DNA of 43,064 nucleotides from Thermithiobacillus tepidarius DSM 3134 (GTDB lineage Bacteria > Pseudomonadota > Gammaproteobacteria > Acidithiobacillales > Thermithiobacillaceae): positions 314,360-357,423 of the forward strand of contig NZ_KE384096.1 of the NCBI RefSeq assembly GCF_000423825.1, given 5' to 3'. Each line of letters opens with the position of its first letter. The first letter of the stretch is position 1. Shown here piece by piece: positions 29,963 through 32,662 of the stretch. The translations under genes were made by a program, and so were the position numbers. The notes beneath the pieces were generated by a model. That model was not told where the DNA came from and did not search any database. It saw nothing but the letters and a program-made list of their open reading frames with translations.

Positions 29963-29995
29963 TTTCCTGCCACCCCACTTGTTAGGAGGGACGGT

Positions 29996-31189
29996 ATGAG
30001 TTTGGACATACTTAACGAAAAGGGCACGCCCCTCGATCGCCAGGTCTTCACCTGGCGCGAGATGGCGGGCCAACCGTACAGCAAGCTGGACGTCGATGCC
30101 TTCACCCGCGTCCGCGTGATCCTGATGAACGGCATCGAAAACGGTTCGATCCGCTTCAGCCATTCCTGCGCGCAAATGAACAACGGCGAGCTGCGTGGCC
30201 ATCTCGCCCGGGTCCGGCGCATCGACCACATGCAGGAAGTCATGGTCAACTGGCTGAATCCGGCGGATCAGTCCAATCTGGAAACCACCATCGGCTACGA
30301 GCAGGTCGCCATCGAGGTCACCGCGAGCGTGGCCCAGAACGAGCCGGATCCCTATCTGGCGCAGGTATACCGCTTCGGGATGCTGGAAGACTTCGACCAC
30401 CTCTACCGCTATTCCGCCTTGCTGGACCGCCTGGAGGGCAAGGATCCCAACAATATCCTGCAGAACTACACCGACATCATGCCGGGGCGGCCCACGGCGG
30501 TGGAGCACCGCGATCCCATGGACGATTTGCGCGATCACTACGACCGCAAGTCGGCCCATCCGATTTCCAAGCTGAATGCGCTCACCATCATGACCGGCGA
30601 GTATCAGACGCGCACCTTCTACATGAACGTCGGACCGACTTATTCCGATCCGGTGGCGCGGCAGCTCTACGCGGAGATCGTCACCATCGAGGAGCAGCAC
30701 GTGACTCAATACGAATCGCTCCTCGATCCCGGCGAGTCGTGGCTGGAGCGATGGCTGCTGCACGAGGCCACCGAAGCCTACAATTACTGGAGCTGCCTGC
30801 AGTACGAGACCAATCCGCGCATCAAGGCCATCTGGGAACGCTTCCTGTCCTATGAGCTGGGGCAGCTGCACTACGTGATGGACCTCATGAAGCGCATCGA
30901 AAAGCGCGACCCGGCGGAGGTGCTGCCGGCGGAGCTGCCGGATCCGATCAAGTACGAAAGCCACCGCGACTTCGTGCGTCAGGTGCTGAAGAACGAAGTC
31001 AACCTGCGGGCCAAGGGCAGCCAGTTCGTGGACGCCAGCCAGGAAGGACAGGAGTCGATCCGCTACCGCGAACAGCTCAACTCCCAGGGCTCGCCGTCTG
31101 AAATCGCGGCGGCCGGCTACATGTGGCAGCCCGGCACGGAGCTGGCGGGTCGCGTGGTGGAAATGGGTGCATACAGGAGGGCGCAATGA
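29996..31189 (+). CDS. Ferritin-like superfamily protein with two helical bundles
   Basis: The 397-residue, mostly helical protein has no signal peptide. The second half has metal-site residues of the ferritin-like kind: E202 in TGEYQTR, E232xxH235 in IEEQHVTQYE, E257/E260 in LLHEATEAYNY and E287...H292 in YELGQLH. The first half shows a parallel but looser set: E48, D77-H78, E102/E107 and D132xxH135 in EDFDHLYRY. This suggests a tandem duplication of a four-helix bundle with the second site better kept. AGGAGGG lies before ATG 29996; the upstream in-frame TTG at 29942 would run through the palindrome. It overlaps the next gene by 4 bases (ATGA). The specific function is not known. Confidence 0.75.
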   Translation: MSLDILNEKGTPLDRQVFTWREMAGQPYSKLDVDAFTRVRVILMNGIENGSIRFSHSCAQMNNGELRGHLARVRRIDHMQEVMVNWLNPADQSNLETTIGYEQVAIEVTASVAQNEPDPYLAQVYRFGMLEDFDHLYRYSALLDRLEGKDPNNILQNYTDIMPGRPTAVEHRDPMDDLRDHYDRKSAHPISKLNALTIMTGEYQTRTFYMNVGPTYSDPVARQLYAEIVTIEEQHVTQYESLLDPGESWLERWLLHEATEAYNYWSCLQYETNPRIKAIWERFLSYELGQLHYVMDLMKRIEKRDPAEVLPAELPDPIKYESHRDFVRQVLKNEVNLRAKGSQFVDASQEGQESIRYREQLNSQGSPSEIAAAGYMWQPGTELAGRVVEMGAYRRAQ

Positions 31190-31941
31190 AGAAACCAATC
31201 GACACGGGGATGAACCGGACCGGCATCGGCATGTCGCCTATGGATTCCAAGGCGACCATCGAGGGCGCGCGCGAGGCGGTCTCCAATCCTTCCTACGATC
31301 TGTCCGGCTATGTGGCCATTCGCGATGCCTATTCCAAGGAGGCCGAGCCGGTGGGCACCGTGCCGCCGCCGCCTTCTGTCAAGGGCATGGCGCAGACCGC
31401 CATGCAGGCGCTCAAGGGCAACAAGCCGACCGTCTTCATCGACATGCTGGGCGAGCGCCTGGCCTTCGAGCGCAGCGGCGTGCGCCTCTATGAGGCCTTG
31501 CTGAGCAAGTTCGATGCCGCCCACGTGCATGAGGGCGGACCCACGCGCGAGCAGATCCAGCATATCCATGACGAGGAGCTCAAGCACTTCGGCATGCTCA
31601 TGCAGGCCATGGAGCAATTGGGCGCCGACCCGACGGCCATGACGCCAAGCGCAGACGTCACCGGCGTTGCCTCCATGGGCGTGCTGCAGGTGCTGACCGA
31701 TCCGCGCAGCACGCTTACCGAGGCGTTGCACGCCATCCACATGGTGGAGCTGCTGGACAACGACGCCTGGCAAATGATGGCCGATCTGGCCGAGCAGCTG
31801 GGCCAGGACGATCTGGCGGCCCAGTTCCGGGAAGCCAAGCGCGAGGAGGACGAGCACCTGGAGCTGGTCCGCACTTGGCTGACCAACACGCTCATGGGCC
31901 AAGCCGGCATTGCGCGCACGCCCGGCCAGACCACCCACTGA
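31186..31941 (+). CDS. Ferritin-like di-metal protein, partner of the upstream gene
   Basis: The 251-residue protein has a disordered N terminus (about 1-80, rich in Pro, Ser and Gly). A four-helix bundle follows with a complete di-metal ligand pattern. Glu lies in GERLAFERSG, ExxH in EELKHF, Glu in HMVELLDNDAW and ExxH in EEDEHLEL. That pattern is typical of bacterioferritin, rubrerythrin and related di-iron or di-manganese proteins. The four-base overlap with the preceding gene implies 1:1 translation and perhaps a complex. No rubredoxin or heme-ligand motif is present. Two strong hairpins follow the stop, closing the operon. Likely roles are peroxide or metal handling, by inference only. 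Confidence 0.78.
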   Translation: MKKPIDTGMNRTGIGMSPMDSKATIEGAREAVSNPSYDLSGYVAIRDAYSKEAEPVGTVPPPPSVKGMAQTAMQALKGNKPTVFIDMLGERLAFERSGVRLYEALLSKFDAAHVHEGGPTREQIQHIHDEELKHFGMLMQAMEQLGADPTAMTPSADVTGVASMGVLQVLTDPRSTLTEALHAIHMVELLDNDAWQMMADLAEQLGQDDLAAQFREAKREEDEHLELVRTWLTNTLMGQAGIARTPGQTTH

Positions 31942-31992: not shown

Positions 31993-32036
31993 CCTGGTCT
32001 TCCCACGCCAGCCGCGGCTGGCGTGGGAAGACCAGG
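31993..32036. repeat. 44-bp perfect palindrome (22-bp arms, no spacer)
   Basis: Bases 31993-32014 and 32015-32036 are exact reverse complements, centred on CCGCGG. It lies 24 bases before the DUF305 start codon and 20 bases after the preceding hairpin. As RNA it would form an extremely stable stem; as DNA it could extrude as a cruciform. The segment GGACCA at 31985-31990 can also pair with TGGTC in the left arm, giving a competing small hairpin. Confidence 0.9.
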
Positions 32037-32059: not shown

Positions 32060-32662
32060 ATGAGAAATCCTGTCATGCTGGGTCCTGCACTTGCTTTCCT
32101 GCTGTTCACTGCGAGCGGCACGACGCATGCCGCCGACTCGCGCACACCGGGCAGCAGCGCCGGCGAAGCACCGGCGGCCGCTGCTGCGCCGCAACCCGTT
32201 GCGGCGCCTTACGATTTGCAGTTTCTGGATACCATGATCCAACATCATCGCGGTGCAATCGAAATGGCGCGTCTGGCGGAACAAAAGGCGCAGCACGACG
32301 AACTCAAAACCTTTGCGCGCAAGACCCAAAAGGACCAGCAACAAGATATCGAGGAAATGCAGCGCTACCGCGAGCGCTGGTACGGGGGCAAGCCCGATGC
32401 CGTGAATGCAGCGTTGCCCGGCATGCGCGGCACCCTCGGGATGGAGATGGGCCCATTGCAGGATGCCAAAGGCGATGCCTTCGACCGCCTGTTTCTCGAT
32501 ATGATCAAGAAACACCATGACGGGGCCGTGGCGCTGTCCAAGGATGCCCAGCAAAAAGCTGCCCATCCGGAACTACGCAAGCTGGCTGGCAAAATGCTGC
32601 AAATGAACCAGGAAGACATCAAAAAAGCGGAACGCTGGCAGACCGCCTGGTACAGCAAGTGA
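32060..32662 (+). CDS. Secreted DUF305 family protein
   Basis: The 200-residue protein has a cleavable signal peptide (about 1-25, ending TTHAA), an Ala/Pro-rich linker, and two DUF305 half-repeats with His-rich helix starts. The first is LDTMIQHHRGAIEMARLAE (about 55-73), the second LDMIKKHHDGAVALSKDAQ (about 151-169). The duplicated HH(R/D)GA motif points to periplasmic metal binding. Some DUF305 members are linked to copper or iron handling. AGGAG lies 7 bases before ATG 32060. The adjacent di-metal ferritin-like genes make a metal-stress context plausible. Confidence 0.88.
   Translation: MRNPVMLGPALAFLLFTASGTTHAADSRTPGSSAGEAPAAAAAPQPVAAPYDLQFLDTMIQHHRGAIEMARLAEQKAQHDELKTFARKTQKDQQQDIEEMQRYRERWYGGKPDAVNAALPGMRGTLGMEMGPLQDAKGDAFDRLFLDMIKKHHDGAVALSKDAQQKAAHPELRKLAGKMLQMNQEDIKKAERWQTAWYSK

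Follow-up and report, generated by a model that had tools for sequence, protein, structure and literature searches.

Two overlapping genes of Thermithiobacillus tepidarius DSM 3134, here called P1 and P2, raise the question of what a pair of ferritin-like proteins, the first of them annotated as 'hypothetical protein', might form and do together. They lie in the window, by which we mean the whole stretch of 43,064 nucleotides that was analysed. The gene boundaries and the ATGA overlap proposed by the first-pass annotation are present in the sequence, and a good Shine-Dalgarno sequence stands ahead of each gene. The features of the locus are listed below, with the Shine-Dalgarno sequences taken from direct reading of the sequence and the structural assignments taken from the models described later.

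29984–29989, + strand: Shine-Dalgarno sequence AGGAGG of P1
29996–31189, + strand: P1 gene, 397 aa, predicted nested double ferritin-like protein, above no Pfam cut-off
30098–30250, + strand: P1 helices 1-2 (aa 35–85), predicted first hairpin of the outer bundle, with E48 and D77xxQ80
30275–30436, + strand: P1 helices 3-4 (aa 94–147), predicted first hairpin of the inner bundle
30299–30301, 30389–30391 and 30398–30400, + strand: codons of E102, D132 and H135 (helices 3-4)
30560–30715, + strand: P1 helices 5-6 (aa 189–240), predicted second hairpin of the inner bundle
30599–30601, 30689–30691 and 30698–30700, + strand: codons of E202, E232 and H235 (helices 5-6)
30740–30901, + strand: P1 helices 7-8 (aa 249–302), predicted second hairpin of the outer bundle, with E257, E260 and E287xxQ290
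31176–31181, + strand: Shine-Dalgarno sequence AGGAGG of P2, within P1
31186–31189, + strand: ATGA shared by the P1 stop and the P2 start
31186–31941, + strand: P2 gene, 251 aa, single ferritin-like/rubrerythrin-like protein
31186–31425, + strand: P2 N-terminal extension (aa 1–80), with conserved G8, N10, G13, P18, G57, P60, P62 and G67
31426–31902, + strand: predicted P2 four-helix bundle (aa 81–239), with E95, E131xxH134, E188xxD191 and E221xxH224

The gene pair and its relatives

P1 and P2 are real genes: relatives show similarity over the full length of P1 and carry P2 homologues alongside. Scanning 84,980 species genomes yielded 531 stretches with P1 relatives, and the best 80 of these 531, near full length and 64–71% identical to window P1, make up the type I set used below; they come from Myxococcota, Pseudomonadota, Nitrospirota, Acidobacteriota and other phyla. 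Wherever the locus is intact and leaves room downstream (78 of 78), P1 is adjoined by a P2 homologue (36–58% identity); one truncated locus (L002) and two contigs ending at the locus are left out of this count. The first-pass annotation had named a survey of gene neighbourhoods as a check on the pair, and no separation of the two genes was seen in these 78 loci. The same 4-nt overlap occurs in 21 loci and a 1-nt overlap in 6, and nearly all other pairs lie less than 200 nt apart. P1 was found in 7 of 299 sampled Pseudomonadota genomes, with P2 adjacent in 6 of these 7, and in 7 of 188 sampled Myxococcota genomes. The order is reversed, P2-P1, in two genomes, one of them among the 299 Pseudomonadota.

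Pairwise distances of P1 and P2 are correlated (r 0.53; best permutation 0.12), which fits inheritance as a unit, with shared phylogeny contributing. The survey of neighbour families in the relatives' loci found no conserved third gene beside P1-P2, so the pair appears to be the unit. From their sequence context, P1 and P2 thus look like obligate neighbours, an arrangement compatible with a hetero-oligomer.

The distribution of the pair is patchy. The window's genome (2.96 Mb) carries it, and among 57 genomes of relatives just one other P1 match was found, covering residues 1–156 only and without an adjacent P2, so the pair has been lost or acquired. Locus L002 (1501–2040; the same region as L124), from the same class, encodes just residues 1–156 of P1 (73% identity); this fragment without P2 is a remnant gene. 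In a quick tree, P1 sequences cluster largely by phylum, with extra changes, which suggests some transfer. Several P1 copies occur in single genomes, two in Sorangium, two in a Kofleriaceae bin and three in Nannocystis (L018/L082, L023, L123), and one of the Nannocystis copies belongs to the divergent subtype described below, with a type I pair a few kb away. In L035 (8001–10052), the P1 frame lacks a stop and runs out of frame across P2, probably through a sequencing or assembly error. Near the pair on a Pandoraea plasmid is a second, more distant P2-like gene (L097, 3940–4617, minus strand; E 5e-11), annotated as hypothetical. A phage or viral origin of P1-P2 was considered and set aside, as viral contigs gave no match.

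Between P2 and the next gene of the window lies a perfect inverted repeat with 21-nt arms and a 2-nt loop, without a T-run (31993–32036), which could separate P1-P2 transcriptionally from that gene. The gene (32060–32662) encodes a DUF305/CopM-like product with DUF4142 similarity, another four-helix metal-type protein, and is not conserved as a neighbour of P1-P2 in other loci. On the 5' side of P1, 27037–29431 holds genes for a UbiE-type methyltransferase, a divergent polyprenyl synthetase and a Pfam-less, hydrophobic-looking protein, possibly an isoprenoid/quinone set, which is not conserved beside P1 in relatives. An ORF of 569 aa antisense to P1 (29489–31198, minus strand) is most likely a codon-bias shadow; long antisense ORFs are found in relatives too. 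A simple promoter and terminator scan of the whole window returned nothing. In agreement with the first-pass annotation, no rubredoxin or reductase gene adjoins the pair, and none is conserved in the relatives' neighbourhoods.

Predicted folds and metal-ligand sets

P1 lies above the cut-off of no Pfam or NCBIfam family. Its score against the Ferritin model PF00210 is 17.6 bits, below the ferritin/bacterioferritin family cut-off of 24.5, and only 3 of the 80 members match this model even at E 0.1. A PDB sequence search with P1 gave no match. An AlphaFold2 model built on the 80-sequence alignment (pLDDT 92.2, pTM 0.91) places the bundle helices at residues 35–61, 64–85, 94–114, 119–147, 189–215, 219–240, 249–270 and 274–302, followed by a C-terminal tail. 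VIA-align matches to this model are of two types: the first covers residues 92–245, as with mini-bacterioferritin 9qq5 (120 residues, 1.9 Å, Z 11.2, 19% identity), and the second spans residues 31–305 with only ~125 residues aligned (bacterioferritins, Z ~12). These ranges indicate an inner bundle made of helices 3-4 and 5-6, and an outer bundle made of helices 1-2 and 7-8. A structure missing from the VIA-align list carries no weight here as a negative. In Foldseek, the top-ranked match class was CopM (TMt ~0.7), with alignments of ~154 columns, equal to P1 92–245 as compared by length and not by printed range. CopM (DUF305) is thus alike in fold and has a relative in the gene 3' of the pair, but it is a copper-binding single-bundle protein, unlike the double-bundle P1.

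The loops between hairpins lead to the same pairing. Those at 86–93 and 241–248, with 8 residues each, are not long enough to make a ferritin B-C crossover, whereas the 41-residue loop at 148–188 is. The first-pass annotation had assigned one bundle to each half of P1, one active and one decayed; this arrangement was rejected on account of the short loops and of matches from both aligners that cross the halves. Its broader claim of two ferritin-like proteins, one of them double-bundled, agrees with the AlphaFold2 models and the fold matches, and the predicted structures contain four-helix bundles in both P1 and P2. Alignment ranges and residue counting together suggest that P1 is built as two nested four-helix bundles, resembling a fused hairpin-swapped dimer. 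Profile alignment of one half against the other (P ~8e-5, a low-diversity estimate) supports a probable origin of P1 by internal duplication. Covariation at an Meff of 56 gave no clear signal on helix pairing in P1. Comparison of P1, including its segments, with P2 at the profile level gave no convincing homology (Neff <2).

In EncFtn, a ferritin-like site arises where two-helix hairpins with E and ExxH come together, and duplication of such a hairpin unit has been proposed as the origin of classical ferritins (PMC5012862). The nested bundle of P1 would be a naturally occurring fused hairpin-swapped dimer, which bears on this proposed origin. P1 differs from EncFtn in having four hairpins in one chain, and its matches are far below cut-off; in the divergent subtype, single hairpins resemble EncFtn weakly (E 0.02–0.06), and P1 relatives score 13.6–15.2 bits against a cut-off of 27. 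No encapsulin family is among the 25 commonest neighbour families of P1 loci. P1-P2 as encapsulin cargo was rejected, the EncB match of P2 being sub-threshold (22.3 bits against 90).

Under the nested pairing, the best P1 site draws E102 and D132xxH135 from the half previously called decayed, and E202 and E232xxH235 from the other half. This inner set is present in 80/80 type I sequences and in 25/25 across both subtypes. Residues 6–137 of 9qq5 align to P1 model residues 92–245 and, counting from the aligned ends, E102 corresponds to 9qq5 residue 16, E232 to 124 and H235 to 127; the 9qq5 ferroxidase ligands include Glu16, Glu124 and His127 (PMC13168243). With a turn three residues shorter per hairpin, D132/H135 correspond to Glu49/His52 and E202 to Glu91. 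By this residue counting, the inner bundle is predicted to hold a near-canonical ferroxidase or oxidase site. The likeness to the mini-bacterioferritin of Ca. Methanoperedens (9qq4/9qq5) thus covers both the superposition of the inner bundle and the ligand register. P1 departs from that protein in that its single chain also wraps a second bundle around the first, one Glu is replaced by Asp, a haem site is not known, and the gene has an obligate partner.

The outer set is nearly as constant among type I sequences: E48 (79/80), E/D77 (80/80), Q80 (79/80), E257 (79/80), E260 (80/80) and E287 (80/80). In E. coli-type Bfr, residue 1 pairs with P1 model residue 31, which puts E48 on Glu18. Position 290 is His in 58 of the 80 sequences and Gln in 22, including window P1. 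The outer site therefore appears to be modified, with Gln where His is usual, yet conserved and not decayed. The N-terminal set had been called degenerate, a description that does not hold, since E48, E/D77, Q80, E102, D132 and H135 are conserved like the C-terminal set. For the C-terminal half, the residues listed in the first-pass annotation are present and nearly all conserved; the exception is H292, which varies, the fourth-helix ligand being residue 290.

The AlphaFold2 model of P2 (pLDDT 90.6) contains one bundle and the conserved 80-residue N-terminal arm, a possible docking segment. The folds closest to it are those of thioferritin, Dps, Bfr and YciF (Z ~16; YciF, 2gs4, Z 16.2), and its best PDB profile match is symerythrin (1.1e-5, over helices B-D). 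P2 exceeds the Pfam cut-offs of Ferritin (30.4 against 24.5), Rubrerythrin (27.8 against 22.8) and COQ7 (24.6 against 23.5) and stays below that of DUF892 (10.7 against 23.7 bits), which 15 of 79 P2 relatives match at E <=0.001. The full E...ExxH...E...ExxH set claimed for P2 was borne out: E95, E131, H134, E188, D191, E221 and H224 are each invariant in 79/79 sequences. The seven-ligand site of rubrerythrin includes an extra Glu on helix C, where the motif is ExxE; the corresponding stretch of P2 reads E188xxD191, both residues in 79/79, and resembles it. P2 differs from rubrerythrin in its N-terminal arm, its constant pairing with P1 and the lack of a rubredoxin donor, C-terminal or separate, in P2 itself or conserved nearby; symerythrin is not known to have a rubredoxin electron donor either. 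The YciF/YciE (DUF892) stress proteins are alike in fold, and no P1 partner is known for them. P2 is best described as a putative di-metal protein with a single rubrerythrin/YciF-like bundle.

The four-helix bundle with E/ExxH/E/ExxH ligands that marks the ferritin-like superfamily is found in P2 and, by the model and VIA-align with geometry from residue counting, in P1. The superfamily is already known; the P1 family, its nested double bundle and the obligate P1-P2 pairing appear new within the literature searched, and P1 was not described in the libraries searched for double or tandem ferritin-like proteins, their neighbours and the regulon. The P1 family is strongly conserved across phyla and has no entry in Pfam or NCBIfam.

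A possible di-metal redox complex and its alternatives

At a probability of about 0.5, we infer that P1-P2 is a hetero-oligomeric non-haem di-iron (or Fe/Mn) redox complex acting, when cells are stressed or oxygen is low, on peroxide, O2 or Fe(II), the complex, metal, activity and trigger all being part of what is inferred. Translational coupling would ensure co-production of P1 and P2, probably from a sigma-54 promoter in many relatives, and the two would become partner subunits of a cytoplasmic complex with di-metal (di-iron, possibly Fe/Mn) sites. P1, as a tandem-duplicated four-helix unit folded as a fused hairpin-swapped dimer, would contribute the near-canonical site of its inner bundle (helices 3-4/5-6) and the modified site of its outer bundle (1-2/7-8), and P2 the rubrerythrin/YciF-like bundle with its arm. 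The di-iron sites would use O2 or H2O2 to oxidise Fe(II) or to remove peroxide or O2. We found no assay of the module in the literature searched.

Several findings count against the redox-complex reading: three other ferritin-family genes are present in the window's genome, the window's own P1 lacks a good sigma-54 site upstream, profile comparison revealed no convincing homology of P1 with P2, and the weak matches of P1 are no more to ferritins than to oxidases and oxygenases (fatty-acid desaturase, ribonucleotide reductase small chain, aldehyde deformylating oxygenase). These weak matches suggest an unlikely alternative, in which P1, perhaps together with P2, would be a di-iron oxygenase or oxidase and not a detoxifier of oxidants; its substrate would be a small molecule or lipid, the reaction a hydroxylation, desaturation or deformylation, and P2 would serve as partner or activator. 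P1 members match FA_desaturase_2 (12), Ribonuc_red_sm (9) and Ald_deCOase (3), and the P1 profile finds its best PDB sequence match in aldehyde deformylating oxygenase, whose helix 1-2 region aligns with E48 and E77xxQ80; P2 exceeds the COQ7 cut-off, and two- and three-component di-iron oxygenases are common. Every one of these P1 matches is weak, however (E 0.005–0.8), the neighbourhoods surveyed hold no conserved reductase, ferredoxin or biosynthetic gene, and the neighbours and candidate co-regulated genes are of a stress type.

The likeness of the P1 inner bundle to a 12-mer mini-bacterioferritin, the Bfr and Dps fold matches and Ferritin score of P2, and the presence of heteromeric Bfr/Ftn structures (9iig, 9h1u, 9bts) among the P2 fold matches would also suit a heteromeric mini-ferritin, in which P1 and P2 co-assemble into an iron-storing shell as heteromeric bacterioferritins do. 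We regard this as quite unlikely, because the nested bundles and C-terminal tail of P1 and the 80-residue arm of P2 are unlike cage subunits, and because the genome already has the three other ferritin-family genes.

Candidate sigma-54 promoters and the divergent subtype

The sequences upstream of P1 suggest that many relatives of P1-P2 are probably transcribed from a sigma-54 promoter. With the consensus TGGCAC-N5-TTGCW, GG and GC being obligatory, sites scoring at least 9 of 11 were found 5' of type I P1 at 21 of 80 loci and in 15 of 43 sequence clusters (80% identity), compared with 1.5 in shuffles (maximum 5), 0–3 loci at other spacings and 5.8% for other genes in the same loci. Sites scoring at least 10 occur at nine loci, against none at other spacings. 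The window's own P1 upstream region has no convincing site; the organism has RpoN. An activator gene adjoins P1 in just 1 of 81 loci.

In six beta/gamma-proteobacterial loci, a dyad TGTAA-N3-TTAC(A) with 9/10 matches lies 5' of the sigma-54 site, against 0.18 in shuffles. In six such genomes, a dyad followed by a sigma-54 site was seen in 10 of 48, against 4.5% at random positions, a figure to be read with the dyad having been noticed post hoc and the strands of palindromic sites not being independent. The same combination stands 5' of hemerythrin genes (three genomes) and of CBS, SRPBCC-Hsp20, alpha-amylase-family (trehalose-type) and glycosyltransferase genes. As a lead, these sites outline a candidate sigma-54 regulon of beta/gamma-proteobacteria with the operator TGTAA-N3-TTAC (L159, L162, L163, L165, L169, L175, L184), and the sigma-54 link would offer a handle on when P1-P2 is made.

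Such sharing of the dyad and promoter by P1, hemerythrin, CBS, SRPBCC-Hsp20 and trehalose-type genes in six genomes, together with the sigma-54-type promoters 5' of P1 in relatives, speaks for a further alternative: a low-oxygen module, made as oxygen falls, that binds or consumes O2 like bacterial hemerythrins. A comparable regulon exists in M. xanthus, where low-O2 control of CBS, USP, cbb3 and hemerythrin genes lies with the sigma-54 activator NmpR (PMC11841059). NmpR itself was rejected as the P1 activator, since its motif GCGCA-N5-TGCGC is not enriched 5' of P1 (40 against 36 by chance). This result and the single locus with an adjacent activator gene speak against the low-oxygen module, which we consider improbable.

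The divergent P1 subtype is 41–47% identical to window P1, lacks P2 and occurs in an alphaproteobacterium, Tistrella, Streptantibioticus, Nonomuraea, Nannocystis and others. A hemerythrin, DUF4142 or DUF892 gene lies within a few kb in 5 of 8 loci and adjoins P1 in 3. The arrangements, with one type I locus for comparison, are as follows.

L118: P1-DUF4142-hemerythrin
L098: DUF4142-P1-hemerythrin/DUF892 fusion
L096: P1-hemerythrin
L095 and L120: hemerythrin gene near P1 (in L120 identified by eye)
Pandoraea (type I): P1-P2-DUF892

DUF892 genes thus stand beside P1 in both Pandoraea and Tistrella, and type I loci have DUF4142 (4 members) as one of their most frequent families downstream. That P2 is an obligate partner, and that the divergent subtype lies close to genes for hemerythrin and other four-helix proteins, suggests that free-living bacteria have a di-iron module here. 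The preferred redox-complex reading has a more far-reaching form, which is speculative and rather doubtful: P1-P2 would be an enzyme of a type not yet recognised, in which each pair of a hetero-oligomer holds three different di-metal sites on a fused hairpin-swapped double ferritin fold. Its O2 or peroxide chemistry would go beyond that of known ferritins, rubrerythrins and hemerythrins, and the pair would be under the control of a cross-phylum sigma-54 stress or low-oxygen regulon. The window's genome also carries four hemerythrin-domain genes within 13 kb (G000 contig C6, 1058–13949).
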